Source: Mesostigma viride (Eukaryota; Streptophyta; Mesostigmatophyceae; Mesostigmatales; Mesostigmataceae). From it: a stretch of 64,000 nt of DNA. The number at the start of each line of letters is the position of its first letter. The stretch's first letter is position 1. The notes under the pieces were generated by a model, which saw nothing but the letters and a program-made list of their open reading frames with translations, ran no database searches and had not been told where the DNA came from. The position numbers were made by a program, and so were the translations under genes. The stretch spans positions 1,023,843 to 1,087,842 of the forward strand of contig RPFO01000584.1 of the NCBI GenBank assembly GCA_009746045.1, given 5' to 3'. Below are positions 5,538 through 51,677 of the stretch, piece after piece.

Positions 5538-5542
5538 ACTTC
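5538..5542 (+). repeat. Target-site duplication ACTTC, left copy
   Basis: ACTTC at 5538-5542 is repeated at 24570-24574. Removing 5543-24574 joins the copia frame cleanly as ...RGT-SAIPSRWVYARK. Five base pairs is the usual duplication for LTR-element integrases, so this marks the outer borders of the composite insertion. Confidence 0.9.
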
Positions 5543-5754
5543 ATTTGCGCAGCAACTCGTCAGCAGAGCTTGTGAGCTCCTGGTCCTTGCCGGCTGGAAT
5601 GACCCTAGGCTGCTGGCTAGCAACCTTTATCCTCACACCAGGCCTACGACCCTCGATAGGCTCGCCACTCGTCGTGACGACCAAGGTTCGTGTGTGAAGA
5701 CGCTCGTTGCCTCGTTGAGCCTCGAGCTATATGCAACCTCGTTCCATCCTTGTT
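5543..5754 (-). repeat. Isolated 3' LTR end fragment of the minus-strand family
   Basis: About 212 bp that match 16189-16388 and 23916-24126 essentially base for base, including the intact terminus ATTTGCGCAGCA that is missing at 16189. It breaks off after TCCTTGTT and runs straight into part of the plus element's LTR. Confidence 0.85.
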
Positions 5755-6039
5755 TGCAAGGTAGCGGTAAGCTGAGCTCTGGCAAGGTAGCGGTGCACTG
5801 TGCGAGGCCGACGGGAGATGCCTTAGGGCACCATGGAAATGAGGTAACATAAAGCTATGGCCTAAGGCAGGTCAAGGCAGTTCTTTGCCGACGCACCGTG
5901 GTTGTCACTTGGAGTGAGCAAGCCAGCGAGAGCGTTACCTGGGGCGAGGAGCAAAGGTTGCAAGCTACGCGACCTAGGTCCTAACAGTTGCGACAAGGAC
6001 CAGGAGCTCACGGCAGCTGCCTGGCCGGCGTCGCTAAAT
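5755..6039 (+). repeat. Truncated 5' LTR of the plus-strand element
   Basis: This segment matches the last 280 bp of the 3' LTR at 15908-16188 with only about three differences by eye. The first 380 bp or so of the LTR are absent. It ends ...GGCGTCGCTAAAT, followed by CGTATTATTG. The minus element has the similar CGTACTATTG after its LTR, supporting this as the LTR end. Confidence 0.8.
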
Positions 6040-6923: not shown

Positions 6924-8146
6924 ATGCTTAAGGGCAAGAACGGGGTCGGCGGCGGGAGCAAGGCGGTTGCGACGGAGGGTGAGAGGCGGAAAGCGTCAGT
7001 GCCAGCAGTCGGCCAGCCAGAAGGGGAGACGATTCCCACGATGGAGGGCGTGGCGGGGCAAAAGACGCGGTACCGGAAGCGAAAGGAGGAAGCACGGGGA
7101 AGGAGCGCGCAGAAGGGCCATCGGACAGCTTTGAGCTGGCTGGAGGAGGCCAAGGGAGGGGATGCAGGCCAACGGTGGTAAGACGGCCCGTGTGGCCGAG
7201 GCAGTCGTTCCTCCTCATGTTTCTGTAGACGCTTGGGCTGGGGGTGCTGGGGCTTCTGCTGTGGGTAGTGATGCTCGCGCGTTGCCAGGAACTAGACCCC
7301 ACATAAGTGCTGTAGCCGTGATGAACGGCCAGAAGCCTCTGAAGCCACCCGTGAGTCAGGAGGAGTTAGACAAGTGGTTAGAGGATATGGAGCTAGTCAC
7401 CTACTCCGTAGATCCCACTGTCAATCTCGTCCAGGTGTTCCATGCTTCCTCAGTGAATAGGGATTCTTCTGAGCGTGTGAGGGACAAAGCCAGGTCTGCA
7501 GTGAAGGATAAGCTCTCTTAGGAGCAGTTTCTCCTGGGCCTGCGTCAGGAGTTTTCTGACAAAGTCCTCAACCTCACTAATCACTACAAGCTGGCCTATG
7601 ATGCGTTTGAGATCAGGGGCTCAGTGTGGATGGTCGCAATGCAGCTAGGCTGTTTGCAGATCAGACAGATGGGTCGCTGGCTGCCTTAGAGAGGGTAGTC
7701 TTGAGCATTCGCCCATCTGCCCCTGCTTGTAAACCCATTCAGACCTCAGGTGCTTCAGCCTCCGCTAGCCAGGTGCAGGGGGATGCCCCAGGGCAGGCAG
7801 CCCAGGGAGGTCCTCATCCTAGCAGGCGTCAGAGGGCTGGGAGGCGCAGGGGGGTTGGAAACCAAGGTGGCAAGGGCCAGCAGCAAGGGGCTCAGAACAA
7901 GGGTCAGAAGCAGGCTGGTGGTCACCAAGGGGGGCAGCAGGGGGGGAGGTAGCCAAGGGCAAGGCAAGAGCCAGGGCCAAGGCAACCAGAATAAGCCAGG
8001 CAACCAGAACCAAGGGGGGTCAGAGGAAGGCCCCGGCTGGGAAGGAGGATAAGTGCTTTGGCTGTGGTAAGACAGGTCACTGGCACCGTGATTGCCCTGA
8101 TCTGGCCAATGCTGCAGGAGCAGGTGGTCAGTCCAGGAAGCCGTGA
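6924..8146 (+). pseudogene. gag: Gag of the plus-strand element (decayed)
   Basis: Starts at ATG 6924 (MLKGKNGVGGG), with a Lys/Arg-rich N-terminus paralleling the minus copy. A capsid-like part (SQEELDKWLEDMELVTYSVD, about 7354-7413) follows, then a Gln/Gly-rich basic stretch and a zinc knuckle CFGCGKTGHWHRDC at 8054-8095. Damage: a TAG at 7519-7521 where the minus copy has Trp, a deletion of roughly 110 bp with a frame change near 7620, and further frame changes to 8040. The frame ends with TGA at 8144-8146, which is conserved in the minus copy. Confidence 0.8.
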
Positions 8147-9012
8147 CTTAGTGCAGTGCCCCATGTAAATAGTCAGTCACCCCAGGTGGGGCAGGTGGCA
8201 CTTGTAAAAATGGATGATAGGGGTGCACCTCCTGTTCAGCAGCAGGGGGTTGGGAATACTGATGGGTTTGTTCTTCCACATGATTGCAATGTCGCTGCTG
8301 CAGCAGTGCAATTCCCTGGGCCTGTGGCAGGTACAGGGTCTTCAGTGAGTGTTGGCTCTGGGAGTCAAGCAGCTCAGCTGGAAAGTCCTGCTGGCGCCGA
8401 GGGAACCACTGTTGGCTCTGGGAGTCAAGCTGTGGAGGTCCCTGGTTCCAAGGAGCAGGAGGTGGGTCGTGCGGTCCCGCGCACACAGCCAAGTCCTAGT
8501 TCCTCCTTATGCAGTGAGACTGATAGGGGGTTGAGCTATGCAGCCGCTGGGCATACTCTACACCATGTATTTGGGCACTCTAAACAGGCAGAAATGTTTG
8601 CTTGGAAGCTAGGTAAGCAGCCTCTGTTGGAGGCCTGCACTGCAGCTGCTGAGAACTGTATCTGTCAGGAGAATCAGATTCACCCACCACGGTCCCACGC
8701 TAGAGAGCCTGCTAGAGAGCGGGGAGATATCGAAGTAGATATACAGCACATGCGTGGATTGTATCTGTTGGTGGGGGTGGATAGGTTCAGCCGGTATGGG
8801 CTGTTGACCATCCTGCCTGGCATGGATGAGCATCACTTGTTGTTGGGTCTCCAGTCTTTGTTGCCATGCTTTGGGGTGTACACCTTGGTGCAAGCTGACT
8901 TGCAGTTTGACTGCTTGAGAAAGCATGCTGATCAGCTTCCGTGTAAGCTGGTAGTGGTCCCTAGAGAGAGTCATGGGCAGCAGGGGCTGTAGAGAGATCT
9001 ATCCGTGAGGTA
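8147..9012 (+). pseudogene. pol: Integrase of the plus-strand element
   Basis: In the same frame as gag and separated only by TGA 8144-8146. A low-complexity Gly/Ser/Val linker comes first. Next is a zinc-binding pre-integrase motif (LHHVFGHSKQAE ... NCICQE, about 8560-8670), then the catalytic core with EVDIQHMRG (first Asp, about 8738) and VQADLQFD (second Asp, about 8897). One G is missing near 8987, turning the GAVERS motif that carries the third acidic residue into a stop at 8990. The minus copy is intact at that point. Confidence 0.8.
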
Positions 9013-10007
9013 AAGAAAGTGGTGCTAGCAGCAAAGACTGTGCCAGTGGTAGCATCTGCTTTGGAAAAGGCAGCCTGGTGCAAGGGGATTGAGGAACAGC
9101 TTAACCACAGGGTAAACTATTACTATGATGGTGGGGCAGTCTCTCCCTTAGCAGCGCAGTTTGGGTTGTTATCCCCAGAGGTAGTGGGTGCCTGCCTGAG
9201 AAAGGCAGATAGAGTGTTTGCTCGGCTGTGGCGCAAGGACAAGGGCTGGAAAATGCTGAGGCCCCTTGTGGGAATGGGGGTCAGGATGTGGAAGGAGCCA
9301 TCAATACCAGGCAAGCGTGGCAAGTGGCAGGATGGGCTGGTAACCCAGTTGGATGAGGCCAACCATTCTTGTCTGGTAGCCTTGGACAGGGATCCTAGGC
9401 GCGTGTACAGGTTGTCCTGGGCTCATATCCGAGAGAAAAGGCCAAGTGCAATCTGGCCTGTAGACGGCCCTGAGCCTCCCTTGGAGGTTGAGGCTCAGGA
9501 GGAGAGCCAGGCAGTAGATGCTAACCCTCCATGCTTGGATGATGGTCTGTCCTGGATGGACGAGGGTGAGCTGGAATCTGCTGCATCAACTGTCACAAGG
9601 CCAGTAGGGGGCCAGGGCTGGACCAAAGCCCAAGGGGCTCCTCATGGAGGACGTCATCCGGGCATTGATGAGCGGCAAGCGTGATCCCAAGGTATCTAAG
9701 CTCACGGGGTGGGGGTCATGCTGGGCAGCAACATTAGAGGTGGATACCAACTCGCAGGTGTCCATTCTGAGGGCTGAGGATGCTGCAAGGTTGCAGATGT
9801 CTGTAGCCGGTTGCCCAGCCGTGTCTGATTTCTCGAGGAATGTGTCCATGAAAGTTCTGGGGGAGGTGAGTGTGCCTATTCTGGGGGTGCCCACGGTGTT
9901 CTGTGTGGTAGAGGGCTATGAGGGTCCAGCCATACTGGGGCAGAATTTCTTATGCCAGCCGGAGGTGACGATAACCTCTGAGGAATTGGCACTAGAAGGG
10001 CAGGGTA
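9013..10007 (+). pseudogene. pol: Integrase C-terminus and retropepsin-like domain of the plus-strand element
   Basis: Continues the integrase with a basic segment (RMWKEPSIPGKRGKWQDGLV, about 9289-9348) resembling a copia integrase C-terminal SH3-like domain, followed by an acidic linker. After a frameshift near 9640 comes a retropepsin-like domain: LEVDTNSQVSIL with Asp-Thr-Asn at 9743-9751, and PAILGQNFLC near 9940. The DTN in place of DTG also occurs in the minus copy. The CACTA-like insertion at 10008 cuts the frame just after this domain. The protease lies downstream of integrase, which is unusual. Confidence 0.75.
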
Positions 10008-10150
10008 CACTAGGAACTCGGCTTTGAGAATGGGTGAGAAAAGGTGAGAAAAAGGGTGAGATGGGTGAGAAAAAGGGTGAGAAATGGGTGAGAATGGGTG
10101 AGAAAAGTGAGAAAATAGGGTGAGAAATGGGTGAGAATGGGTGAGAAAAG

Positions 10151-10176
10151 GGCAATCTCACCCGGGTGAGATTGCC
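10151..10176. repeat. 26-bp perfect palindrome in CACTA-like subterminal zone
   Basis: GGCAATCTCACCC followed directly by its exact reverse complement. A similar palindrome built on AAAATCTCACC lies at about 13106-13129 near the other end, so the pair is symmetric within the element. Confidence 0.85.
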
Positions 10177-10489
10177 CCAAAAAGGTGAAAAAAGGGGAAA
10201 AACGTGAGAAAAATCTCAAAAAACAGGACGTGAGATAAGTGAGAAAAACGGGAGGTGTGAAACGTGAGAAAAGTGAGAAAAACAGGACGTGAGAAAAGTG
10301 AGAAAAGTGAGAAAACACAGCGCTGAAAAACACACCCATAATGCAATATGCTGGCAGCAGACACATGCATGCAGTGCCAGTAACAACCGCTGTTCAAAAC
10401 AGCACGAACAATAATGATTTTTTCATTAAATGTTTGAATAATTTTAATGTTTACAGCTGCAAGAACCCGTTGATTCAACTATTCAACAC

Positions 10490-10632
10490 TGTTATGGCGT
10501 TATGTACATCTTCGGCATTCAAATATGCCTGTTCAACACAGTCTGTTATGGCGTTATGACATCTTCGGCATTCAATGCCTGTTCAACACAGTCTGTTATG
10601 GCGTTATGACATCTTCCGCATTCAATGCCTAT
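10490..10632 (+). repeat. Tandem repeat, about 2.5 copies of a roughly 55-bp unit
   Basis: CTGTTATGGCGTTATG ... CATCTTCGGCATTCAA ... GCCTGTTCAACACAGT recurs in direct order within the 3.2-kb CACTA-like element. No coding sense is seen. Confidence 0.7.
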
Positions 10633-11309
10633 CATCATATACTATATGGTAGCTAGCTAACAAAGCGGGCCGGTCGACAGGGCGTCACATGCTGACTTGA
10701 AAGTGGAACCGCTTGCATTTTACTCTCGTGGTCCCTGCAAGAAATAAACAAACCGACACAATATACGCAAGAGGAAAAGAAATCAGATCCTTGACATAGA
10801 TGTAAGCGTTCTACAAGGAAGAGCTCACCAGCACCTAACGGTCCATGCAGCAAATGTGTAGAACCCAACACTCACTCTTATGGCAAAGCAGTCCCATGTG
10901 GCAAGGCAGCACCATACACATGAATCACACCATGCGCCAGATGTCACACGAGCAAGGCACAACGTTGTCGTCGGATCAGAAAGCAACAAACGTGAAAACG
11001 CTAGCGGCCCAAATCTGAGATTCCGCGGAACACAGAAAATAAGAAAGCTCAGAAGCTACCAGCAAGGGATCGAACATATGACCTTTGGCATGATTTCGCG
11101 GCTGTGTGAGTCTCCTGATCCGAAGGCATCTCACTTAATTAACGTTTCGAAACAGCCAAACTGCGGAAAATCTCTTTCCGGAGAGAGTTGCCAATATCAA
11201 GGAGACAACCAGCGCAGGCCAGAAATCGGGAGAATCCGGACCATGGTAGCTCGAGCCTGCCGTTATCTTGTCCGCGTTTTCGAGTCGTGCAGGATTATGA
11301 ATATGAATG

Positions 11310-12270
11310 GAGATGGAAATGTGTAGCCTTGCGCATTGAAATTACGGCTGGCTGACGTGAAGAGCGACTACATGACCTACACGGTGGGGCCGGAAACGGC
11401 TTGCTTGATTGTGTTTCATCGTGGGCAACGAGTCCAACAACTACTTTCTCTGGGCGGCAAACTGCGGCAAATTGAACGCAAACCTCATCATGAAATCTTG
11501 ACCGTCGAAATGTAACCATCCGACGACTTATGCAGTATGCCGCGTAATTTTCTGTTGCGGGAGAGCCGTTGGGCCGGTTCCCGACGCGGGCGACCAGTGG
11601 TTTGCGTTAAGTTAACTTAGCTGAAGTTCTCCAACAGAAGTGACCCAAGCCGCATGATGGCACTCATCGACGGCCTCAGTCTATTGACGCGTCGGCCCGA
11701 TTTTGGCGGCACCCAATTTGACCCCAACGGCACCTACCGACAAAGGGCATAGGTACGTACGTTTCACGCGCACCACGACCTTCGAGCTCTGCTATGGCGG
11801 TGGTGCCGTGGGGCCCGCATCAGACTGCGGGCCCTTATCTGCTTTGGCGGTGCTGCCGCTGGGCCCGCATCAGAATTCAGGCCCTTTATGCAGGCGGGCC
11901 CTTAATGCATGTTACTTTTTTATTCTTCTGCATACAAATATGAAGCAATGAGGTCGTGTCCTCCGGATTTTTGCATTTGCACCGTGGGCAGTTCTTGGAC
12001 GTTTGGAAACATGCATGATGGCATGTGGCTAATGCAATGACTGAATCAAGCTAGACCGTTTCAGTGGTTTTTCATTTGCGGGTATTTCCTCGTAAATGGT
12101 GGGAAAGCGATCGCAGCAATGGTTCTCACCACTAGACACTCCCGGCCAGTGAAGCTCGAAAAACACGCCCTGATCAAGCAAGCTGTTTCCGGCCCCACTG
12201 TATAGGTCATCTTACAGTCGCTCTTTGCGTAAGCCAGCCATAATTTCAATGAACAAGGCTGCACATTTGC
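11310..12270. repeat. Internal inverted repeat of about 110 bp within the CACTA-like element
   Basis: The segments near 11310-11425 and 12165-12270 are diverged inverse copies. They share GGGGCCGGAAAC(G/A)GCTTGCTTGAT and flanking bases. The region between them contains no recognisable protein. A tRNA B-box-like GTTCGATCCC lies on the minus strand at 11066-11075, just upstream of this block. Confidence 0.6.
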
Positions 12271-13250
12271 ATACTCTTTTCTTGGTTATCGGTGTGCCTT
12301 TGTTTGGATGCAGGGGGGATCGCTGTGCTGACACAACGCGTTCAACGTGCTGGGAATCAACAATCCTGACGTCCCAAGGTTTACTGGAGGGGCGGGGACC
12401 TGATGATCAACCACGAGATGTGGACGCCCCCTGCGGGCTAGAATAGCCCTAGCTTGTACTCATTGGCAGTCTCTGCCGCCATGGCAGCCATGCCTAGAAT
12501 GTTTGCCTAGCTGAGCCATTATACCTAGTCACGTGCACCGCTAACACACGGTACACAACCAGCCATAGCCTTAGCTTAGTCCTTGTACAACCATGCTACG
12601 TCATGGCAATGCTCAGATTACTTGCCCATGCACCCGTTATGATATGCTCACATGGGTCTTATTGCACCCACAGATTGCCGGATCGTTTATCGGGTCCAAT
12701 AGCAGCTGCGACATGCCTTTGGCATGAAGGAGAAAGGGGGTCTGTGCCCTTCCTGTTGTGCACACACAGGGATTAAAAGCACTTCGGTGCTCCGTGATCC
12801 AACGGGAGCACGAGTTCAATTAATCATGTAATTAATTAATTAGTGGTGCTGAGTTTATTTTCACATTAATGACTTAATGAAATAAAGCTCATGATTTTTT
12901 TCGTGTTACACTCTTGGTGAGAAATTTCTCACCACGTTGACTTGTGATTTTTCTCGTGTTAGTATTTTTTCTCGTGTTGGTGAGAAACTTCTCAATTTTT
13001 TCACTTTTTCTCACTTTTTCTCACTTTTTCTCACCCATTCTCACCTTTTTTCTCACTTTAGGGTTTTTTCTCACCCAAATCTCACCCAAACCCCCTTTTT
13101 CTCACCAAAATCTCACCCTGGTGAGATTTTGTTGCCTAGCGTTTGCGGAAAAAAATTGAGATTTTTCTCACTTTTCTCACCTTTTTTCTCAAAGGGGTGA
13201 GAAAATTGAGGGTTTTTGAGAATTTTCTCAGAAATTGAGTTCCTAGTGTA

Positions 13251-13896
13251 GTTTACCCCTCCAGAGATATCGCTACTCCCAGGGACTTAGTGTGGCTGTA
13301 AGGGCTGTGAAGGGTGTTGCAGTGGAGGGGCCTGATTCTAAGGAGCCCATTGCTAAGGACCTGCTGATCATCCCAACTACGTTTGACCCACGCCAGTTGG
13401 GGGTGCAGAGGTACCAGATCCCTGGAACGAGTCCTGTACCTTGGCGCAAGCTAGTGGAGATGATGCAAAGCCCCAAGATGGCTAAGGCATGGACTCCTGG
13501 CTTCGTTGCTTCTGGGCATGAGTGGATGATTGCCAACTGTGCAGAGCCTGTAGAGGTCCTCCCTGAGGATCACCAGCTGCTCAGATTGATGTTTGTCCTC
13601 AAGCTCAAACAGGTAGATGGTGTCAAGGTGCCACATGTCAGACCAATTGCAACCGAGTACCATGGCACTAGACAGATAGCACATGAGGAGCTCTATACAC
13701 CAGGGATGCTGCATGACACGTGGAGAATGTTGTTGTGTGTTTTCTTATCCTTCCTGGTCAAAGGCATTGCCTATGGCTCTGCTTTGATAGATTTCAAGGG
13801 GGCTTTTCTCAAGGGTGACCAGGAAGCGGCTAGGGAGACATGGCGAACAATACCACCTTTCTTTGATAAGTGTGCTTGCTGTGTTAAGTGTCCCTG
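13251..13896 (+). pseudogene. pol: Reverse transcriptase, N-terminal part, of the plus-strand element
   Basis: Resumes after the CACTA-like insertion with RYRYSQGLSVAVRAVKG and runs through SGHEWMIANCAEP and the first catalytic segment ALIDFKGAFLKGD (about 13783-13821). Near 13870-13890 the frame jumps from PPFFDK to LQEPITRPRG. About 420 bp holding the second catalytic box, present in the minus copy as HGDD, are deleted. The enzyme cannot be active. Confidence 0.85.
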
Positions 13897-14583
13897 CAGG
13901 AGCCCATTACCCGGCCAAGAGGTGCTACCATACGCGGTATGTTGGCATGGTTGGCTAGCATTTGTGCGCCTGACCTGCTGGTCTTGAGTCGGTTGACAGA
14001 TTCCCAGCTGGTCGAGGTGGGTGTTGAGAGTGTGATGCAATCTGTGAGGATGTCTCCACCTCTCATCTTGGGTCCTTTGGATTAGTACAGGCCCTTGGAC
14101 ATGGTTCTCTATGTGGACAGTTCTATGGATAGAAGGAAGGTCACAGAGGTCAGGGGGCGGGCAGCAGCATTAAACACCCTGGTGCAGGAACAGTCCTCTC
14201 TGGTCTGCTGGTACAGTCGATTGCAGAATAGGGTAACCCCCAGCAGTGACATTGCTGAGTGCAGAGCAATCTGTGAGGGGCTGCACACAGCCCTTTACTT
14301 GAGGGAGCTTTTCTACCAGCTATGTAAGGTAGCTTCCTGTCGGTTGCAGATGCACACACTGGTGAAAACTGGCAGCATGGGCATGGTGCAGTTCGTGCAC
14401 AGGCAGCTGGCCAGAAGCAGGGACCTTGATTATCTGTTGCTCAAGGCACTGTCCTGCTTAGCTGACATTGAACATGTGGCTGGCCTGGATAACCCTGCAG
14501 ATGCTCTCACCAAGCTTGAGGAGAAGGCCGTGCAGCAGTACCCTCTGCTCCGTGGGCTCATGGGCCCCATGGTGGGGTGCTAG
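13897..14583 (+). pseudogene. pol: RNase H region of the plus-strand element
   Basis: Copia-like connection (GMLAWLASICAPDLLVLSRL) and RNase H. Visible acidic sites are MVLYVDSSMD near 14100, DIAECRAICEG near 14250 and LDNPADALTK near 14490. A TAG at 14083-14085 replaces a Leu of the minus copy just before the RNase H core. Otherwise the frame is open to the stop at 14581. The third RNase H motif reads KTGSMGM here but RTDSMGM in the minus copy, so an acidic residue is lost. Confidence 0.8.
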
Positions 14584-15527
14584 GGAGACCAACGCCTTGC
14601 TCTGAGGTGGGATGTGTCCCGGTGGGCTGGGTAGCCAGAAATGGCTGACAGCGGGTTCTTCAGGGTTCGTACACCCTGCTGAACAGGGGTCAGGGTGGAG
14701 TCACTCCCCTGGCTGAGAATATCGCCTGGCCCTGTCATGGGGTTGCAGAAGGGTCTTAAGGACCTTGTAACCGGCCTTGGGTCTTCATGGAATGGACCCT
14801 GAAAGGGCAGCCCAAATGTTGGCTCTTACAGGTTGCTGTACATTTGTTTATATTCTCTGTAACCAACCTGTTGCATGCTAATAAAACCCTGGTTGTGTGA
14901 CCATGTTGGACGTGGTTGCCAGGGAGCCTCATTATGGGTTATTCTCTCTATATTAATAAGTCATAATCGTGTTATCTCCATTTCATGTTTGTTTGTAATG
15001 TACAGTTCCAGGAGCTGTTCCAAACCTGGAGGATATGGGGTGGGGTTCGATTCCCCAGCTGACCACAGCCTGGCATGTGTGAATCCTGAGTTTATCCCTC
15101 AGTGAGGACATGGGCTCCCCAGCTTGGCAAGCATTAACTGGGCTCTATCCGTGTCTGTTGAATGAAAAGGAAGGGGAATGGTTGTGAGCGGGCGCCTCTG
15201 ATACGGGCGCCTGTGATAACTGGAAAGGACCAGGAACTCACAATAATACGTATCATAACTTCCTCTGTCCAAGTTCAGCTGCCTGGATGTAGAGACCTCA
15301 CTTTTCTCCTCAACCAGGTTCCCAAAAGAAAGGGTTGGGGGCTGACATCTGGGTCAGGGCTGGGCCTTGGAACCAATGTTGGCTCTGGGCTAATCTTTGG
15401 GTAAAACCTCAAGTTCCAAAAGAAGGGCAGCCCTGGCCTCTGGGAGAGGTCAGGAGTCTGTGGCATGAGTGAGCATGGCTGATTGGAATCTCAGGCTGGT
15501 CCAGCCTCCAAAACAAGAAAGGGTTGG
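14584..15527 (+). other. 3' untranslated region of the plus-strand element
   Basis: About 940 bp between the pol stop and the 3' LTR. It is the diverged mirror image of 16831-17767 in the minus element. It holds a tRNA T-arm-like GGGGTTCGATTCCCC at about 15042-15056 on the sense strand. Confidence 0.6.
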
Positions 15528-16188
15528 AGTTAGCATATTGGGACGCCAATGTGCTAGTTGGATGCAGGATGAGGAGACCTTTCTAACGCCGTACTGACCG
15601 CCTGAAACAGACAAGGGACGTGAGAGTTATCAGGTCCCGAAGTACTGCCGACCGGCGGCGGCGGCAGTGCACACCGAGGTCGCCGTGGACAGGACACGTG
15701 GCAGGCAGGGCCTGCACAGGCTTAGCCTGGACCATCACGTGACTAAGGTCCACGGAGGCTGAGGACGCAACGGTCCTGTGGCTAAGTAGAGACCAGTAGG
15801 CCAGTCGCGGGCTCTGCAAGGATACGCATCCGTGCAGAGCTGTGACAGGAACTGGTGATACCTAGTCACGGGATGTCAGAGGTCCTTAACGCTACCTGCA
15901 GCGAGGATGCAAGGTAGCGGTAAGCTGAGCTCTGGCAAGGTAGCGGTGCACTGTGCGAGGCCGACGGGAGATGCCTTAGGGCACGATGGAAATGAGGTAA
16001 CATAAAGCTATGGCCTAAGGCAGGTCAAGGCAGTTCTTTGCCGACGCACCGTGGTTGTCACTTGGAGTGAGCAAGCCAGCGAGAGCGTTACCTGGGGCGA
16101 GGAGCAAAGGTTGCAAGCTATGCGACCTAGGTCCTAACAGTTGCGACAAGGACCAGGAGCTCACAGCAGCTGCCTGGCCGGCGTCGCT
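15528..16188 (+). repeat. 3' LTR of the plus-strand element
   Basis: About 661 bp beginning AGTTAGCATATTGGGA and ending GGCGTCGCT. It is a diverged reverse-complement relative of the neighbouring LTR at 16189-16830. Its last 280 bp are almost identical to 5755-6035. It lacks the terminal AAAT and abuts the other LTR directly. Confidence 0.8.
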
Positions 16189-16830
16189 ACTCGTCAGCAG
16201 AGCTTGTGAGCTCCTGGTCCTTGCCGGCTGGAATGACCCTAGGCTGCTGGCTAGCAACCTTTATCCTCACACCAGGCCTACGACCCTCGATAGGCTCGCC
16301 ACTCGTCGTGACGACCAAGGTTCGTGTGTGAAGACGCTCGTTGCCTCGTTGAGCCTCGAGCTATATGCAACCTCGTTCCATCCTTGTTCCTCGGTCATGA
16401 GCAACGCTGGGCAACGCTACATTGCCAGAGCCTCGTATCGCTGCCCTGCATCCTTGTTGCAGGCAGCATACAGGAATCTCTGGCTATCCTGTGTCTAGGA
16501 CAGCACAGGACCTGCCACAGTCCTGCAAGGACTTACATCCTTGCAGACCTGCTGGCTGGTTACTGGCTTCTACTAGCCACAGTACCGTTGAGCCCTCAGT
16601 ACACTGTGTCCCAGTCACGTGAGAGTACAGGCTAAGCCTGTGCAGGCACGGCCTGCCACGTGTCCTGTCCACTATGCCCTGAGTGTGCCCCGCCCTCGCC
16701 CACCGGTCGGCAGTACTTCGGGACTTGATAACTTTCTAGTCCCTTGTCTGTTCTAGGCGGTTGACACGGCGTTGGAAAGGTCTCCTCAACCTGCATCCAT
16801 CTAGCACATTGGTGCCCCAATATGCTAACT
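16189..16830 (-). repeat. 3' LTR of the minus-strand element
   Basis: 642 bp that appear identical to 23928-24569. Relative to that 5' LTR it lacks only the 12 terminal bases next to the junction at 16188/16189. Identity of the two LTRs indicates a young insertion or recent gene conversion. Confidence 0.9.
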
Positions 16831-17767
16831 CCAACCCTTTCTTGTTTTGGAGCTTGGACCAGCCTGAGAACCTATCAGCCACTGTCCCCACAAGCCTTCA
16901 GACATCTGATCCCTCCCAGAGACCAGACCTGCCTTTTCTTTTGGAACCTGAGGTGCCTCCAAATATTAGCTAGGCCTGCTCATTGGTTCAAAGGTTGCCC
17001 TCTGACCCACATGACATCCCAACCCTTTCTTTGGGAACCTGGTGTAGATTAAAGTTAGGTCTTCACTTAGTCAGAGGAGTTTGGATAGAGGAGTCCATGA
17101 ACGTACTATTGTGAGTTCCTGGTCATCCAGTTATCACAGGCGCCCGTTCATATGGCGCCCGCCACGGAGCCTCCTTTATCTTTTAAATCCTTCCAAAGAC
17201 TGAGAGAGCCCTGACAAATGTTAGCCAACACATGGGGAGCCCATGTCCTCACTGAGGGATAAACTCAGGATTCATACATGCCAGGCTGAGGTCAGCTGGG
17301 GAATCGAACCCCACCCCATCTCCTCCAGGTTTGGATCAGCTCCTGGAACTGAGCATCACAAACAACAAGACATGACAATAACAAGATTATGTTTTATTAT
17401 AAAGGAGTATAACCCATAGTGAGGCCCCTGGCAACCACGTCCAACATGGTCACACAACCAGGGATTTTATTAGCATGCAACAGGTTGGTTACAGAGAATA
17501 TATACAAATGTACAGCAACCTGTTAGAGCCAACACTTGGGCTGCCCTTGCAGGGTCCATTCCATGAAGACCCAAGGCCCATTACAAAGTCCTTAAGACTC
17601 TTCTGCAGCTCCATGACAGAGCCAGGCGAAATTCTCAGCCAGGGGAGTGACTCCACCCTGACCCCTGTCCAGCAGAGTGTGTCTGAACTCTGAAGGACCT
17701 GCTGTCAGCCACCACGTGGCTGCCCAGCCCACTGGGATGCCTCCCACCTAGAGCAAGGCTGTTTGGT
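16831..17767 (-). other. 3' untranslated region of the minus-strand element
   Basis: Non-coding stretch between the pol stop at 17768 and the 3' LTR. It carries the same T-arm-like sequence as its counterpart (GGTTCGATTCC on the minus strand, 17300-17310), again on the element's sense strand. Confidence 0.6.
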
Positions 17768-20467
17768 CTACTCTGGCCCTCCCCCCTTGGAGGCCATGAG
17801 CCCACGAAGCAAAGGGTATTGCAGCTCAGCCTTCTCCTCCAGCTTGGTGAGAGCATCTGCAGGGTTGTCCACGCCAGCCACATGTTCAATGTTAGCTAAG
17901 CAAGACATTTCCTTGAGCAACAAATAATCAAGGTCCCTGCTCCTGGCCAGCTGCCTGTGCACAAACTGCACCATGCCCATGCTGTCAGTTCTTACCAGTG
18001 TGTGCATCTGCAACCGACAGGAAGCCACTTGACATAGCTGGTAAAATAGCTCCCTCAAGTAAAGAGCAGTATGAAGCCCTTCACAGATTGCCCTGCACTC
18101 AGCAATGTCACTGCTGGGAGTTACCCTGTTTTGCAACCGACTGTACCAGCAGACCAGAGAGGACTGTTCCTGCACCAGGGATATTAATGCTGCTGCACGG
18201 CCCCTGACCTCTGTGACCTTCCTACTATCCATAGAACTGTCCACATAGAGCATCATGTCAAAAGGCCTGTACAAATCCAAAGGACCCAGCATGAGAGGGG
18301 GAGACATGCGAACAGCCTCTACCACTCTCTCAGCACCCACCTCAACCAGTTGGGAATCGGTCAACCGACTCAGTACCAACAGGTCAGGAGCACAAATGCT
18401 GGCCAGCCATGCCAACATACCTCGTATTGTTGCACATCTGGCCTGGGTGATGGGCTCCTGCAAGGCATCTATGATCTGCTGAGGATAATCCTTACCACCC
18501 TCCAGCTGGATGGACCATGTACCCTGCTGATGGACCAAGGTCGCCTGCATTCCACAAAACACCATGGGCTCATTCTCAACCATGTACTGGATCTTACCCA
18601 GTTCAAACCGTTTCTGGATCCTGGCCAGAGTCAACTCTTGCCAAGTGGGATGGCCCAGGAGATGCAGATCATCACCATGCAGGGAGGCAAACGCTGGCAG
18701 CCCCTCATAGCTACCCTGAAACAGACAAGGATCAACTGGAGAGACTGAGAGACCACAGACAGACCTGAGGTACTTCTCCAAGCTCTTCCTCCAGATGATG
18801 GGACTCGATCTAAGGCCTTCCACGCCTTTGAGAATCCTCAAATACCTCGTCTTCAGCTCTGCCCTCCACACTGCAGGCACCTTAACAAAGAAAGGGGGTA
18901 TTGTGCGCCAAGTATCCTGTGCTTCCTGCTGATCACCCTTAAGAAAAGCCCTCTTGAAATCTACCAACACAGAGCTATAGGGTATCCCCTTCTGCAGAAA
19001 AGACAAGTAAATGCACAACAAAATCCTCCATGTATCATGCAGCATCCCTGGTGTGTAAAGCTCCTCATCTGCTAACTGTCCAGTGCCATGGTACTCAGTC
19101 ACAACTGGTCTAACATGTGGCACCTGCACGCCATCTACCTCCTTGAGCTTGAGGACAAACATCAACCTGAGCAGCTGGTGATCCTCAGGGAGGACATCCA
19201 CAGGCTCTGCACAGTTGGCAACTATCCACTCATGCCCAGAAGCAACAAAGCCAAGAGTCCATGCCTTAGCCATCTTGGGGCTTTGCATCATCTCCACTAG
19301 CTTGCGCCAAGGTACAGGACTCGTTCCTGGGATCTGGTACCTCTGCACACCCAACTCACGTGGGTCAAACGTAGTAGGGAGGATCAGCAGGTCCCCAGCA
19401 ATGGGCTCCTTTGTATCAGGACCCTCTGCCTCTAGACCCCTCACAGCCCTTACAGCCACACTAAGACCCTGGGAGTAGCGATATCTCTGCAAGGGAAGGC
19501 GGCCCTGCCCTTCTAATGCTAGCTCCTCAGAGGATATCCTCACCCCTGGTAAGCACAAGAAGTTCTGACCTAGAATGGCAGGCCCCTGATACCCTTCAAC
19601 CACACTGAACGTGGTGGGCACCCCCAGGATAGGCACACTCACTTCTCCCAAGATCTTCATGGACACATTCCCAGAGAAATCAGACACAGCTAGGCAGCTA
19701 GGGGATGACCACTGCAAGCCTGCAGCATCCTCTACCCTTAGAATGGACACCTGTGAGTTGGTATCCACTTCTAGTGCTGGTGCCCCACATGACCCCCATC
19801 CCGTGAGCTTAGATACCTTGGGATCACGCTTGCTGTTCTGCAGAGCTCGAATGATGTCCGCCATAAGCAGCCCCCTGGACTGTGGTGCAGCCCTGGCCAC
19901 CTCTGGCCTTGTGACAGACGTCTCAGCAGACTCCTGCTCACCCTCATCCATCCAGGACAGACCATAATCCAAGCATGGTGGGTTAGCATCTGCTGCCTGG
20001 CTCTCATCCTGCTCATCTCCCTCCAAGGGAGGATCAGGGCCGTCTTCAGGCCAGATTGCAGTTGGCCTTCTCTCCTTGACGTGAGCCCAGGATAGCCTGT
20101 ACACGTGCTTGGGATTACTCTCCAAAGCCACCAGACAAGAATGGTTAGCTTCCTCAACATGGGTTACCTGCCCATCTTGCCACTTGCCACGCTTGCCTGG
20201 TAATGACGGTTCCTTCCACATCCTGACCCTCAGTCCCACCTGGGGCCTCAGCATTTTCCAACCCTTGTCCTTACGCCTCAATCTGGAAAACACCCTGTCT
20301 GCCTTCTTCAGGCAGGCTGCCACCACGTCCTGTGATAGCATACCAAACTGCAATGCCAGGGGAGAGACTGCCACACCATCATAGTAATAGGTTACCCTGT
20401 GGTTAAGCTGCTCCTCAATCCCCTTACACCAAGCTGCTTTCTCTAGAGCTGATGCCACAACAGGCAC
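17768..20467 (-). CDS. pol: Pol: integrase C-terminus, retropepsin-like (DTN), reverse transcriptase (HGDD), RNase H
   Basis: An unbroken frame of about 899 residues. In order: integrase tail with LPGKRGKWQDGQ (residues ~85-105); acidic linker; a retropepsin-like domain (~215-320) with LEVDTNSQVSIL (Asp-Thr-Asn at 19757-19765) and PAILGQNFLC; copia-like RT with VLVDFKRAFLKGD (~510) and the second box SLHGDDLHLLG (HGDD at 18668-18679); RNase H (~740-870) with LYVDSS, DIAECRA, RTDSMG and VDNPADALTK. Known copia elements place protease between Gag and integrase, while here it sits between integrase and RT. The frame lacks a convincing own ATG. It follows the integrase frame with one base missing near 20475, where the plus copy reads straight through, so the join is a frameshift lesion or, less likely, programmed frameshifting. 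Confidence 0.85.
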   Translation of the reverse strand: MPVVASALEKAAWCKGIEEQLNHRVTYYYDGVAVSPLALQFGMLSQDVVAACLKKADRVFSRLRRKDKGWKMLRPQVGLRVRMWKEPSLPGKRGKWQDGQVTHVEEANHSCLVALESNPKHVYRLSWAHVKERRPTAIWPEDGPDPPLEGDEQDESQAADANPPCLDYGLSWMDEGEQESAETSVTRPEVARAAPQSRGLLMADIIRALQNSKRDPKVSKLTGWGSCGAPALEVDTNSQVSILRVEDAAGLQWSSPSCLAVSDFSGNVSMKILGEVSVPILGVPTTFSVVEGYQGPAILGQNFLCLPGVRISSEELALEGQGRLPLQRYRYSQGLSVAVRAVRGLEAEGPDTKEPIAGDLLILPTTFDPRELGVQRYQIPGTSPVPWRKLVEMMQSPKMAKAWTLGFVASGHEWIVANCAEPVDVLPEDHQLLRLMFVLKLKEVDGVQVPHVRPVVTEYHGTGQLADEELYTPGMLHDTWRILLCIYLSFLQKGIPYSSVLVDFKRAFLKGDQQEAQDTWRTIPPFFVKVPAVWRAELKTRYLRILKGVEGLRSSPIIWRKSLEKYLRSVCGLSVSPVDPCLFQGSYEGLPAFASLHGDDLHLLGHPTWQELTLARIQKRFELGKIQYMVENEPMVFCGMQATLVHQQGTWSIQLEGGKDYPQQIIDALQEPITQARCATIRGMLAWLASICAPDLLVLSRLTDSQLVEVGAERVVEAVRMSPPLMLGPLDLYRPFDMMLYVDSSMDSRKVTEVRGRAAALISLVQEQSSLVCWYSRLQNRVTPSSDIAECRAICEGLHTALYLRELFYQLCQVASCRLQMHTLVRTDSMGMVQFVHRQLARSRDLDYLLLKEMSCLANIEHVAGVDNPADALTKLEEKAELQYPLLRGLMASKGGGPE

Positions 20468-21354
20468 ACTCTAGCTGCTAGCACCACTGTTTTTACTTCA
20501 CGTATAGATCTCTCTACAGCTCCCTGCTGCCCATGGCATTCCCTAGGGACCACTACCAACTTACAAGGAAGCTGGTCAGCCAGCTTGATCAAGCAGTCAA
20601 ACTGCAAGTCAGCTTGCACCTTGGTGTACACCCCAAAGCCTGGCAACAAAGACTGGAGACCCATCAACAGCTGATGCTCCTGCATTCCAGGAAGAATGGT
20701 CAGCAACCTATATCTGCTAAACCTATCCACCCCCACCAACAGATACATGCCCCTGATGTGTTGGATGTCCACCTGGATATCCCCCCGCTCTCTAGCAGGT
20801 TCTCTGGCATGGGACTGTGGGAGGCGAACAGCATTCTCCTGACAGACACAATTCTGAGCAGCTGCACTGCAGGCCTCTAGCAAAGGCTCCTTGCCAATCT
20901 TCCAAGCAAACATCTCTGCCTGCTTAGAGTGACCAAAGATATGGTGTAGAGTGTTTCCAGCCTGAGCATAGCTCAACCCCCTGTCAGCCTGGCTGCACAG
21001 AGAGGAACGTGACAAAGACTGTGTGCTTGGGATAGCACGACCCACCTGCTGTTCTCTTGCTCCAGGGACCTCCTCCAAGGTAGCTCGGCTCCCAGAGCCA
21101 GCCCCGGTTCCCACAGAAGCTGCAGGTCCTTCCAGTCTGGCGGCTTGACTCCCAGAGTCAACCCCAACAACTGGAGACCCTGCACCTGCCACAGGCACAG
21201 GGAATTCCACTGCTGCAGCAGCGTTATTGCAATCATTGAGTGGAAGCACCTCATCATTCCCAACCCCTTGCTGCTGCACAAGAGGGACACCCCCATTACT
21301 ATGTACAACTGTTCGTCCCACTAGGGGTGATTGACTATTTACAGGGGACAACAT
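20443..21354 (-). CDS. pol: Pol: integrase zinc-binding and catalytic core
   Basis: About 303 residues, in the gag frame and separated from it only by a TGA. The first 120 residues are low-complexity linker. LHHIFGHSKQAE ... NCVCQE is the HHCC zinc-binding pre-integrase motif. The rve core shows IQVDIQHIRG (Asp codon 20767-20769), VQADLQFD (Asp 20608-20610) and GQQGAVERSIREVK (Glu 20512-20514). The second and third acidic residues are 31 apart, shorter than the usual 35. The frame ends at 20443 after a one-base deletion relative to the plus copy, overlapping the next frame by 25 bases. It inserts element cDNA into the host genome, and the 5-bp duplication ACTTC is consistent with that. Confidence 0.85.
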   Translation of the reverse strand: MLSPVNSQSPLVGRTVVHSNGGVPLVQQQGVGNDEVLPLNDCNNAAAAVEFPVPVAGAGSPVVGVDSGSQAARLEGPAASVGTGAGSGSRATLEEVPGAREQQVGRAIPSTQSLSRSSLCSQADRGLSYAQAGNTLHHIFGHSKQAEMFAWKIGKEPLLEACSAAAQNCVCQENAVRLPQSHAREPARERGDIQVDIQHIRGMYLLVGVDRFSRYRLLTILPGMQEHQLLMGLQSLLPGFGVYTKVQADLQFDCLIKLADQLPCKLVVVPRECHGQQGAVERSIREVKTVVLAARVCLLWHQL

Positions 21355-21360
21355 CTCAAG

Positions 21361-22753
21361 TCATGGCTTACCCACCTGGCCAGAGCCTGCTCCAGCAGAC
21401 TTGGCCTGGTCTGGGCAGTCACGTCGCCAATGACCCGTCCTGCCACATCCAAAGCATTTGTCATCCTTCCCAGCAGCAGCCTTCTTCAGGCCACCCTGGT
21501 TCTGGCTGCTCTGACTGGCCTGGGTGCCCTGGCCCTGGCTCTTGCCTTGCCCTTGGCCACCCTTGTTCTGCTGACCACCCTGGTGACCACCAGCCTGCTG
21601 CTGACCCTTGCCTTTGGATCCCTGCTGCTGGCCCTTGCCACCCTGGTTACCATTCTGCCTGCGCCTGTTAGCCCTCTGACGCCTACTAGGTCTGGTTTCT
21701 CCCTGAGCACCCTGCCCAGGGGCGTCACCATGGACCTGATGAGCGGAGGCTGAAGGGGCACCAGTCACCTGGATTGCCTTGCAAGCAGCATTGTCAGATG
21801 GACGGATATTGAAAATAACCTTTTGCAAGGCTGGCCACGTCCCATCTGTCTGATCAGCAAACATCCTAGCTGCATTTCTCCCATCCACACTCAGCCCCAT
21901 GCGATCCAGGAAGTAATCTGCCACTGCTCTATCAGTCAGATTGAAGCCATGCTTGGCCCCCTTCTCCCTGATGCGTGTGAGCCGCTGCAGCTCCTCAGCT
22001 ATTGTGCCCTTGATCTCAAAGGTATCATAGCTGAGCTTATAGTGATTAGTGAGGTTGAGTACCTTATCAGAAAACTCCTGACGTAGGCCCTCTAGGAACT
22101 GAGACCAAGTCAGCTTGTCCTTGACAGCCTGCCTAGCCTTGTCCCTCACCCGCTCACTTGAATCCCTATTAGTCGTGGATGTGTGGAATACCTGCACAAG
22201 GTTGACAGTGGGATCTACAGAGCATGAAACTAGCTCCATATCCTCCAACCACTTGTCTAGCTCTTCCTGTCCCACAGGAGGCTTGAGAGGCTTCTGGCCA
22301 TTCATCACAGCCACAGCACTCATATGAGGTCTAGTCCCAGGCAAAGCACGAGGGTCACTGCCAATGACAGCAGCTCCTACTGGTGCTAATGGCGCAGGAA
22401 CATAGCTGCAGGAACACCAGACGCAGGCACACATGGTCTCTTACCAGGTGCTTGACGTTCAGCATCATTCTGGCCCTCCCCCGTCAGCACCACGCCGTCG
22501 GTTGGCCACCCTGCACGCTCCTCCCCTTGTGCCACCTCTTTCCTCTTCCGGTTGGACGCCCTCCTGCCATTGACGCCCTCTGCCGTTGGGATTGCCTGTC
22601 CCTCTGGCACGACGTTGGCGGGGCCTCCCGTGTCTGCCCTTGCCTCACCCCCGCCATCCCCCGCTCCCGCCCCGCTCCCGCTGCCGCCCCGCGCGTGTTA
22701 CGAAGCATTATAGAATACACAAAAACACACGCAGATATGGCGCTGGAACCCAC
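21361..22753 (-). CDS. gag: Gag of the minus-strand element with zinc knuckle; ends at a UGA in frame with pol
   Basis: The main frame (22434-21361, about 357 residues) holds a capsid-like region (QEELDKWLEDMELVSCSVDP, then WSQFLEGLRQEFSD and DRAVADYFLDRMGL), a Gln/Gly/Lys-rich tail and a zinc knuckle CFGCGRTGHWRRDC (21415-21456). Upstream, 22753-22386 carries a basic N-terminal piece (PEGQAIPTAEGV, NRKRKEVAQGEE) in other frames, homologous to the plus copy's start at 6924. Frame changes or an intron are needed to join it. The stop is TGA at 21361-21363 followed by CTT. The next codons continue in frame into integrase. The plus copy has the same arrangement, which suggests stop-codon readthrough makes Gag-Pol. 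Confidence 0.8.
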
Positions 22754-22765
22754 TCAGGCTCACGC

Positions 22766-23892
22766 ACTTACTCCAGACGAGGCCGCCTCCTGGCTTGCAC
22801 TCGCCTGCCCCTCCTCACGGTCTGGACGCTGCTCAACACCCTCAGCAACCGATGTGGCTGCTGCTGCCTCTGCGACAATCTGGAGGTCTGGGTTAAACTC
22901 TCCCAGCACGCAGGTCACAGGTCGCCCGTCTCCTTGCGTTCGACTGGATGTTGTGTCTCACCTGGGTTGCGATGCCAAGCAAGATCGCGTACCCACCGCT
23001 TACCGCCGCCGACAAGCTCGTTCTGCTCGCCTCGGCCGTAACGATCGTACTCGTGAGTCACCTCACGAGGGATATGCAGATCAGCTCTCTGCCTTCCTCG
23101 TAGGTCTCGGTAGTGCCGTCGCCCTCGTTTATCTGCTGGGCTGAGCGCTTGACGGAGCCCTCTGGCTTGTCAGTCCACTCAAAATGGACGTCTTCAGGCG
23201 TCTTCTCGACCCCTGCGACAATCTCCACCTCCGGACCCCACGCAGTGGTGGTTTCCGGCCTCGGTGTATCAAGCCTGGAGTACACTCCGAAAGGCTGCGT
23301 GGTAATATAGAACCTGTCTGCGTACCCTCTCGACTCTTGCAAAAGGACAGCAACAAGATTCTCAATGGTTTGGGCAAATACCTCCGCCGTGCTCCAAGGA
23401 TTTACCGTCTCCCGAGCACGCGCGTTCCGGATGATGTCGGCGTCTGGTACCCCCTCTCCTAGCACTGCTGTCGCCACCCAGTGGTTGAACAGTCTGGTGC
23501 TGCCGAGCGCTGTTGCCACGATCTGGCTAAGCGCCTCCCTGGCTAGGTCGAGACCGGCAAGCGTGATATGGGCGCCCTGATAAGCGACCTCCACACGATT
23601 AGCAGTTTCAGCTAGCGCGTCCGAATGCGCACCAACTCTTCCACCGCCACTCGCCCCGTCTCACCTGGAGAAATCACGACGCGAGCCCGTTGTATAATCG
23701 GGTCCGCCGCCGCTGGCCTGTGCCTCCCCCACTCACCGCCACCCACCCCTCTTCTGCCAAGTGCCTCGCTACGTAGGCCGCTTGCACGAATGTTGGAGCG
23801 TTTGCTTGGTTACGGTAGGGGAAAAACGCTTGCGCGTCTCTCTGCTCGTTCGCCTCACCAGCACCGTGGCTGCTTGACGATGAACCAGACAT
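22766..23892 (-). CDS. Unrecognised protein between 5' LTR and gag of the minus-strand element (ORF0, probably spliced or broken)
   Basis: An ATG at 23892, about 24 bases inside the LTR end, opens MSGSSSSSHGAGEANEQRDA ... ARHLAEEGWVA. Then comes a GTGAGT splice-donor-like site. A second open block of about 178 codons (23594-23058) reads VEVAYQGAHITLAGLDLARE ... WSTAEVFAQTIENLVAVLLQ ... EEGREL. A third in another frame gives PREVTHEYDRYGRGEQNELV. A fourth gives VLGEFNPDLQIVAEAAAATS and ends at about 22766. The block composition looks protein-like with amphipathic helices, but I recognise no family. Splice phases do not all fit in my reading, so some joins may be frameshifts. No counterpart is visible in the plus element. 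Confidence 0.45.
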
Positions 23893-23915
23893 GAAAGCGT
23901 GGAAGCAATAGTACG

Positions 23916-24569
23916 ATTTGCGCAGCAACTCGTCAGCAGAGCTTGTGAGCTCCTGGTCCTTGCCGGCTGGAATGACCCTAGGCTGCTGGCTAGCAACCTT
24001 TATCCTCACACCAGGCCTACGACCCTCGATAGGCTCGCCACTCGTCGTGACGACCAAGGTTCGTGTGTGAAGACGCTCGTTGCCTCGTTGAGCCTCGAGC
24101 TATATGCAACCTCGTTCCATCCTTGTTCCTCGGTCATGAGCAACGCTGGGCAACGCTACATTGCCAGAGCCTCGTATCGCTGCCCTGCATCCTTGTTGCA
24201 GGCAGCATACAGGAATCTCTGGCTATCCTGTGTCTAGGACAGCACAGGACCTGCCACAGTCCTGCAAGGACTTACATCCTTGCAGACCTGCTGGCTGGTT
24301 ACTGGCTTCTACTAGCCACAGTACCGTTGAGCCCTCAGTACACTGTGTCCCAGTCACGTGAGAGTACAGGCTAAGCCTGTGCAGGCACGGCCTGCCACGT
24401 GTCCTGTCCACTATGCCCTGAGTGTGCCCCGCCCTCGCCCACCGGTCGGCAGTACTTCGGGACTTGATAACTTTCTAGTCCCTTGTCTGTTCTAGGCGGT
24501 TGACACGGCGTTGGAAAGGTCTCCTCAACCTGCATCCATCTAGCACATTGGTGCCCCAATATGCTAACT
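23916..24569 (-). repeat. 5' LTR of the minus-strand element
   Basis: 654 bp from AGTTAGCATATTGGGG (at 24569, reading leftward) to TTGCTGCGCAAAT (at 23916). Both termini are intact, with ACTTC directly outside at 24570-24574. It does not start TG or end CA, unlike most LTRs. The sequence after it (CGTACTATTGC) shows no obvious primer-binding site. Confidence 0.85.
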
Positions 24570-24574
24570 ACTTC
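24570..24574 (+). repeat. Target-site duplication ACTTC, right copy
   Basis: Pairs with 5538-5542 and marks the right border of the composite insertion. Confidence 0.9.
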
Positions 24575-25849
24575 GGCCATACCTTCCCGTTGGGTGTATG
24601 CACGTAAGTCGGATGGACGTGAGAAAGCACGTTTTGTATGCAAGGGCTATGCCCAGCGTGAGGGTGTTGATTTTCAGGACATCTTTAGCCCCACTGTTCG
24701 TTCCTCCATGCACAGTGCGTTTGGCTCTTGCTTTTGCAGTCACGCATGGCTATACTCTGCATCAATTAGACGTCCGCACTGCGTTCTTGTATGCTCCTTT
24801 AGAGGAGGATGTCTATGTACGTCCACCCCTGGGCTATGAGGAGTATGACGCCTCTGGCGAGCTTCTTGTATGGAAGCTTCATCGCAGCCTGTATGGCACA
24901 CGTCAGGCTCCGCGCAATTGGCATCGCACCTTCCGTTCTCATCTCGTGTCGGATGGTGCAGTGCCTAGCGCTACAGACACATGTCTTTACCTTTATCCCA
25001 GTGCCAGGGGCTTTGTGTTTGTACATGTTGATGACATGATCGTTGCCAGCCCCTCTGCCCCTTGGGTAGCCGCCTGGGTTTCTCGCCTTGGTACACGTTT
25101 TCAGCTGTCCGATTCGGACCACCCTTCCTTGTTTCTAGGTGAGAGTCGTGGTGTTCCCACCCCGGTTGTCCCGGGTGCCGTGTTGAGCGAGGGGGGACAG
25201 TGTGACCAATCGCAACGGGAGGTGTTCCAGCAAATAGTGGGGGCGCTCATCTACGTCACCCAATGGCAACAGATGCAATCACCCACGCTAGGTGATATGC
25301 AGGCTGCCAAGCGGGTCATCCGCTACCTGCTGGCAACCCACGGCCTCGGTCTCCGCTTCACTGGCGGGAGCCTTGAAGGCTGGTCAGATGCGGACTGGGC
25401 AAATGACGTCAAGACCAGGCGGTCTGTCAGCGGCAACCTGGTCATGTACGCTGGTGCCCCTATTGATTGGGCAAGCCGCCGCCAAACGGTGACCGCTCTT
25501 TCTTCATGCGAGGCCGAGTACATCGCTGCGGGCACCTTGCTGCAGTCGGTGCTCCCCCTGCGGAGGATCTTGATGGAGCTGACGGGCTCTACTACGGCTG
25601 CACCTACTCCGGTCTACTGCGACAACACCGGTGCTGTGGCACTCTCCAAGGACCCGGTTCACCCCAAGCGCACATGCAAAACACATTGACGTGCGTTTCC
25701 ACTTCATTTGTGAGAAGGTGGAGGATGGTGACATCAATGTCCAACATTGCCCCGGTGAGGAGATGGTGGCGGATATCCTGACCAAGGCACTTCCGCGACC
25801 ACGCTTCGAGCTGCTTCGAGGACGGCTCCTGCATTCCTGTGTGACTTGA
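24575..25849 (+). pseudogene. pol: Copia reverse transcriptase and RNase H (right part)
   Basis: Resumes copia RT at SAIPSRWVYARKSDGREKAR ... GVDFQDIFSP. A one-base shift near 24700 leads into LHQLDVRTAFLYAPLEEDVY, then FVHVDDMIVAS with the VDD box at 25026-25034. RNase H follows with EGWSDADWAND, SSCEAEYIAAG and VYCDNTGAVAL. One extra A in AAAA at about 25676-25681 shifts the frame. The other frame completes HIDVRFHFICEKVEDG ... EEMVADILTKALPRPRF to the stop at 25847. The region expected to hold the RPD motif between RT and RNase H seems shortened. The copy is dead: three frame changes plus the 19-kb insertion. Confidence 0.9.
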
Positions 25850-51640: not shown

Positions 51641-51677
51641 GCCCAGCAAATCCCCCTCAACGCCGCGAATACCCGGC

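Follow-up and report, generated by a model that had tools for sequence, protein, structure and literature searches.

The 64,000-nt window of Mesostigma viride DNA analyzed here (contig RPFO01000584.1, positions 1,023,843 to 1,087,842 of the forward strand) contains two diverged copies, A and B, of a long terminal repeat (LTR) retroelement, one nested within the other. In each copy, Gag is followed by an in-frame UGA, an integrase (IN)-like core, a domain of ~100 amino acids (aa) that resembles retropepsins, and a region with reverse transcriptase (RT) and RNase H. From the sequence, we consider it probable that this is a copia-like LTR family with the Pol order integrase, retropepsin-derived domain, RT, RNase H. 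The features of the two copies are as follows, with positions counted along the whole window.

24569 to 5543, minus strand: copy B, LTR retroelement, with copy A nested in its 3′ LTR
23916..24569, minus strand: 5′ LTR of copy B, 654 nt, AGTTAGC...GCGCAAAT, then ACTTC at 24570-24574
21361..22440, minus strand: Gag open reading frame (ORF) of copy B, with a CCHC zinc knuckle (zf-CCHC 24.9 bits, E 2e-5, cut-off 20.8) and a UGA end
21361-21363, minus strand, in copy B and 8144-8146, plus strand, in copy A: in-frame UGA between Gag and Pol, UGA CUU in both
20980..21360, minus strand: low-complexity linker after the UGA of copy B, at the place expected for a copia protease
20443..20979, minus strand: IN zinc-finger-like region and catalytic core of copy B, within ORF 21360-20443
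19905..20470, minus strand: IN C-terminal tail of copy B, past the frame break, named from its position
19517..19816, minus strand: retropepsin-like domain of copy B, with a DTN triplet and the closing motif ILGQNFL (template match 19556-19774)
17768..19500, minus strand: RT and RNase H of copy B, with HGDD as the RT palm motif (RVT_2 18.7 bits, E 0.0014)
16186..16830, minus strand: main part of the 3′ LTR of copy B, by alignment to the 5′ LTR
5543..5754, minus strand: last 212 nt of a B-type LTR, forming the outer boundary of the inserted copy B, with ACTTC just before it at 5538-5542
5755-16189, plus strand: copy A, between the two parts of the 3′ LTR of copy B
5755..6036, plus strand: truncated 5′ LTR of copy A, its last 282 nt, 98.9% identical to 15908-16189
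7249..8146, plus strand: copy A Gag, which has breaks as well as a deletion and terminates in the UGA at 8144-8146
8147..9604, plus strand: linker, IN core, and IN tail of copy A, with a frame break near 8985
9692..9991, plus strand: retropepsin-like domain of copy A (template match 9734-9952)
13250..14583, plus strand: RT and RNase H of copy A, 84.0 and 87.3% identical to copy B by tblastn
15528..16189, plus strand: 3′ LTR of copy A, by sequence comparison

Domain order and selection in copies A and B

The sense ORFs of copy B run from Gag (22440-21361) through UGA CUU into 21360-20443, which holds the linker and the IN core, and, past a frame break, into 20470-17768, which holds the IN tail, the retropepsin-like domain, RT, and RNase H. 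Copy A has the same order, Gag-UGA-IN-domain-RT-RNase H, in pieces. The initial annotation, which had seen this order in a second, diverged copy as well, was borne out on this point: Gag, UGA CUU, the IN-like core, the domain, and RT-RNase H recur in A and B. We estimated the ratio of nonsynonymous to synonymous divergence (dN/dS) between the copies for eight segments, one of which is a subset of another. The ratio was 0.09 for the N-terminal part of Gag, 0.17 for the IN core, 0.21 for the IN tail, 0.18 for the protease-like region and 0.15 for its core (bootstrap 0.07-0.30), 0.23 for the N-terminal part of RT, and 0.17 for RNase H, versus 0.54 (bootstrap 0.32-0.88) for the linker, which contains indels and is 63% identical in aa sequence. 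The protease-like domain is under purifying selection, like IN, RT, and RNase H, and the linker much less so. Because the order is common to two copies whose IN, protease-like, and RT segments have diverged to a dS of 0.36-0.77 at a dN/dS of 0.15-0.23, the arrangement is an inherited one rather than a one-off event, as had been argued initially. Both copies descend from lineages that kept Pol as a protein, the IN-RT segment included, and this selection on the Pol segments, set against the weak constraint on the linker, is the strongest argument for an arrangement that was inherited and worked as a unit.

The Gag proteins of the two copies are 84.9, 71.6, and 56.3% identical over the pieces aligned by tblastn. 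At their end, the frame is open on either side of UGA CUU in both diverged copies, which speaks for read-through; in four overlapping stretches 3′ of the UGA, two per copy, RNA structure was no more stable than in shuffled sequences (z 0.03 to 0.92). A peptide upstream of Gag (EG..IPT.EGV.G...RKRKE-like) also occurs in both copies, at 6924-7181 (plus strand) and at about 22700-22390 (minus strand), out of frame with Gag by differing shifts when compared by eye. An intron or programmed shift linking this peptide to Gag was considered and dropped, since the shifts are unlike between A and B.

The RT of the element appears to be copia-like, judging from the sub-cut-off RVT_2 match of copy B and from a BLASTP comparison, the single one made, with the RT of a neighboring ordinary copia element (24598-25686; E 5e-6). 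The RNase H of copy B was recognized solely by its alignment to this neighboring element (profile comparison, E 0.1), and that of copy A matches RVT_3 with 13.5 bits. The palm motif of copy B is HGDD, at 18668-18679 (minus strand); in copia RTs, DD usually follows V or A. Copy A has no counterpart of 18466-18867 of copy B (402 nt), which includes the palm motif. The catalytic residues of IN are D198, D251, and E283 (numbering of the B ORF 21360-20443), that is, D-52-D-31-E, and this is tighter than the D35E spacing usual for integrases. The IS481 transposase model of NCBIfam also touches the IN region of copy B (12.9 bits, E 0.057, cut-off 224), and the IN tail at 19905..20470 has no Pfam match. 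Searches of PDB sequences gave chance-like matches, three with RT-RNase H (best E 0.16, Ycf54) and one with the linker-IN profile (E 1.4). Of the copia likeness that was initially ascribed to RT, RNase H, and IN alike, the part concerning RT has the firmer support, by BLASTP; the rve and RVT_2 scores fell below their cut-offs, and RNase H was placed by the alignment at E 0.1.

The retropepsin-like domain between integrase and RT

In both copies, the domain contains the segment LEVDTNSQVSIL...PAILGQNFL, in which ALEVDT...ILGQNFL fits a retropepsin template, with ILGQNFL some 60 residues 3′ of the stretch ending in DT. The template pattern was composed after the sequence had been seen and allows any residue at the glycine position; it matched in 16 cases when the B ORF was shuffled 200,000 times. 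Within the window (stop-free stretches of at least 80 aa in six frames, 41,557 residues), it occurs only in copies A and B. The canonical motifs of clan AA are DT/SG and ILG (PMC2642776). The second is present in both copies, as PAILGQNFL. At the first, the Asp and the next Thr are kept within DTNSQVSIL, which is identical in A and B. A search of PDB sequences with the domain gave eight weak matches, with E values from 0.92 to 6.2. The top six, to Adagio chains of plants, look chance-like; the seventh and eighth are entries named “protease, tethered dimer”, which we take to be of the HIV type, over the region holding the ILG motif. As to the initial proposal of a retropepsin-like domain between IN and RT, the segment and its place were found in both copies; that it is a retropepsin is plausible, though the scores are sub-threshold and the triplet, which the initial annotation passed over, is DTN. 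We call the domain retropepsin-like or retropepsin-derived, and not a retropepsin, because one of the two canonical motifs is missed, the scores are sub-threshold, and no usable fold was obtained.

A number of results weigh against the proposed Pol order. The family comparison consists of copies A and B alone. In neither of them is the Pol frame intact, since a frame break near 20470 splits IN in copy B and several breaks occur in copy A. The IN cores score below the Pfam cut-off of 32.6 for rve in both copies (15.1 bits, E 0.027, in B; 14.1 bits, E 0.06, in A). For the RT of copy B, RVT_2 is the sole Pfam match at E up to 5, and its 18.7 bits lie below the cut-off of 31.6; the RT piece of copy A matches no RT family in Pfam, and a profile-profile comparison of Pol with the neighboring copia element gave a probability of 0.6% (E 0.1). 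As regards the domain itself, the profile searches suggested at the outset as a check did not confirm a retropepsin. In copy A, its sole Pfam match is to gag-asp_proteas (PF13975), over profile positions 14-90 of 92, and is sub-threshold, at 13.6 bits (E 0.11) versus a cut-off of 28.2. Copy B has no retropepsin match in Pfam, with only a chance-level match to UBA_RAD5A (11.5 bits, E 0.21); the NCBIfam scan found nothing in either copy, and in neither does the domain reach the curated family cut-off of clan AA. The active-site triplet is DTN instead of DT/SG in both copies. Structure prediction, the other check proposed, likewise yielded no usable fold: models from two-row alignments had predicted local distance difference test (pLDDT) scores of 33.5 and 45.2, and a fold search with the second of these returned unrelated matches.

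Such results could be expected if the segment were not a retropepsin at all but a lineage-specific extension between IN and RT, in an element without a protease, whose likeness arose by chance. The sub-threshold profile score in A and its absence in B, together with the unusable models and the unrelated fold matches, favor this explanation. We nevertheless regard it as unlikely, given that two spaced motifs stand in the right order, at 16 in 200,000 shuffles for a pattern defined post hoc, and that the Pfam match of copy A covers nearly the whole retropepsin profile. Far less probable still is an ordinary copia order, in which a true protease would sit unrecognized in the linker between the UGA and IN and the later segment would be something else. 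The linker of copy B does contain VDSGSQ, but copy A has VGSGSQ at this place, so that the Asp is not kept; moreover, the linker is of low complexity, carries indels, and is weakly constrained (dN/dS 0.54), and it has no Pfam protease match in either copy. No other protease was found in the scanned sense ORFs of both copies (short ORFs were scanned in part only) or in their leader ORFs (23058-23660, 23674-24099, 6777-7181, and 6352-6765), in agreement with the initial observation that no protease is visible between Gag and IN.

If the domain is retropepsin-derived, its catalysis is doubtful because the triplet is DTN in both copies, and glycine changes of this sort usually kill aspartic proteases. 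That the domain is an active protease is a serious possibility, which we place somewhat short of an even chance. It may instead be a retropepsin by descent that is catalytically dead and kept for dimerization or structure, with Gag-Pol processed in trans by the protease of another element or the host, or not at all; this, too, is possible, and we hold it with some doubt. The identity of DTNSQVSIL between the copies agrees with a dead domain, as does the recent mobility of this DTN-bearing family, which follows from the recent insertion of copy B (LTRs identical over 642 nt). Against it stand the retained Asp and next Thr in both copies and a constraint like that on enzymes (dN/dS 0.15), and processing in trans is a supposition. 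The probability that we give to the order integrase, retropepsin-derived domain, RT, RNase H is made up of these two possibilities, active and dead, taken together.

Insertion, nesting, and neighboring features

Within the window, the first 642 positions of the 5′ LTR of copy B align to 16830->16189 without a mismatch, and the alignment to 16186-16830 has one mismatch in 645 positions, at the 643rd, adjoining the junction with copy A. Its terminal 212 nt recur at 5754-5543 (212 of 212 nt identical). The 5-bp target duplication ACTTC, at 5538-5542 and 24570-24574, flanks the whole insertion, such that copy B has both the LTRs and the target-site duplication that define an LTR retrotransposon. 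Rejoining the flanks 4745-5542 and 24570-25689 (plus strand) at ACTTC restores the empty site. Its frame is open and includes SLPRGTSAIPSRWVYARKSDGREKARFVCKGYAQREGVDFQDIFSP, which we take to resemble the N-terminal region of the RT in ordinary copia elements, and the continuation at 24598-25689 matches RVT_2 with 89.1 bits (E 4.4e-25). Given the near-identical LTRs, the ACTTC duplication, and the copia-RT-like empty site, copy B is a young LTR retroelement that inserted recently into the RT gene of an ordinary copia element and splits it. The element is larger than the 17768..22753 delimited initially, as copy B spans 5543-24569 with copy A inside it; nor does Gag start at 22753, for the ATG common to both copies sits at 22708 in copy B, out of frame with the Gag ORF 22440-21361. 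The LTR of copy B (23916-24569, minus strand) has the ends AG...AT, where LTRs usually end in TG...CA. Priming may not use the 3′ end of a tRNA, since the sequence that follows the 5′ LTR, CGTACTATTG, does not start with TGG.

Copy A is nested in copy B, as it separates two parts of the 3′ LTR of the latter. At both junctions (5543-6036 and 15908-16388), ~200 nt of the B LTR end and 282 nt of the A LTR end lie together, in opposite order, and the rest of the 5′ LTR of copy A is missing, which suggests either an unusual rearrangement of the nested copies or an error of assembly. Copy A also carries a 3.2-kb insertion at 10008-13248 (plus strand), 3′ of the protease-like domain. By eye, it has 12-bp terminal inverted repeats, CACTAGGAACTC, with TA on each side and adjoining TGAGAAA-type repeats, and it resembles a DNA transposon, either CACTA-type or TA-targeting.

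In a tblastn search of the window with Pol, only copies A and B scored below E 0.5, and with Gag there were additional matches at 1793-1554 (E 0.002) and 41343-41390 (E 0.032). Further Gag-like ORFs with CCHC motifs were seen by eye at 846-3502 (minus strand) and 40823-41525 (plus strand) and probably belong to other retroelements. No relatives were found in viral contigs or in contigs of prokaryote genomes, the latter being little expected to hold any, and none of the stretches matching short patterns in the contig scans (46, 127, 25, 18, and 239) was confirmed by tblastn. An ORF at 50915-51649 (minus strand) encodes a calcium-binding protein with four EF-hands and is probably a host gene; together with the retroelements, it points to a eukaryotic host.

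A possible mechanism and comparison with known elements

As a tentative account, to which we give clearly less than even confidence, a copia-like lineage may have lost its protease from the stretch between Gag and IN and now carry a retropepsin of another type between IN and RT, with DTN either working without the glycine or marking a structural pseudo-protease. For the mechanism, which belongs to the Pol order that we consider probable, the first ORF would supply Gag, ending at the UGA, and some ribosomes, a minority, would occasionally read through the conserved UGA CUU to yield Gag-Pol. The RNA would then be packaged and reverse transcribed, in line with the established biology of LTR elements, and integrase would insert the copy with a 5-bp stagger, the 5-bp duplication itself being observed. 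Upon assembly of Gag-Pol, the retropepsin-like domain could dimerize and cut the polyprotein, freeing IN and RT on either side of it, which the DTN triplet makes doubtful; if the domain is inactive, processing would have to come from elsewhere.

Like Ty1/copia elements (Pseudoviridae), the family has IN upstream of RT-RNase H, an RT that appears most copia-like, a CCHC Gag, and, in copy B, a 5-bp target duplication, as is usual in copia elements. It is unlike them in that the interval from Gag to IN shows no protease, the retropepsin-like domain lies 3′ of IN, and the LTR of copy B ends in AG...AT; the order Gag-protease (PR)-IN-RT-RNase H (RH) is found in neither copy. With Ty3/gypsy elements, it shares a protease-like domain directly before RT and an ILG-type closing motif, whereas copia proteases close differently. 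In contrast to Ty3/gypsy, where integrase comes last in Pol, both copies have the IN-like core before RT; IN here precedes the protease-like domain, and the RT appears copia-like. In the Gmr1 group of Ty3/gypsy, PR still comes first, unlike here, where IN precedes the protease-like domain; the likeness lies in Gmr1 showing that IN can change place. Gmr1 has been described as a gypsy lineage with a copia-like IN position (PMC2774666, citing Goodwin and Poulter 2002), and the known orders are given as GAG-PROT-INT-RT-RH for copia and GAG-PROT-RT-RH-INT for gypsy (PMC6317226).

The order Gag-IN-PR-RT(-RH) was not reported in the literature searched, including for the strings INT-PR-RT and IN-PR-RT, a search that covered subscription journals and preprints poorly. 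A large survey of plant elements removed those with unexpected domain orders as likely mispredictions (PMC6317226), and a survey of fungal elements considered that the protease was perhaps exchanged as a module, with poor detection thought likelier (PMC3248453), a caution that holds for the present element too. If relatives bear it out, the gene order would be an unusual one. An inherited IN-PR-RT order, if true, would mean that the protease can move or be replaced inside a copia-like Pol, and a strongly selected retropepsin with DTN for DTG would either test how strictly the glycine is required or reveal a pseudo-protease retained for a different function. Pol domain order is used to classify LTR retroelements, and Gag-IN-PR-RT-RH, if true, would fall outside the Pol arrangements of copia, gypsy, and Gmr1.

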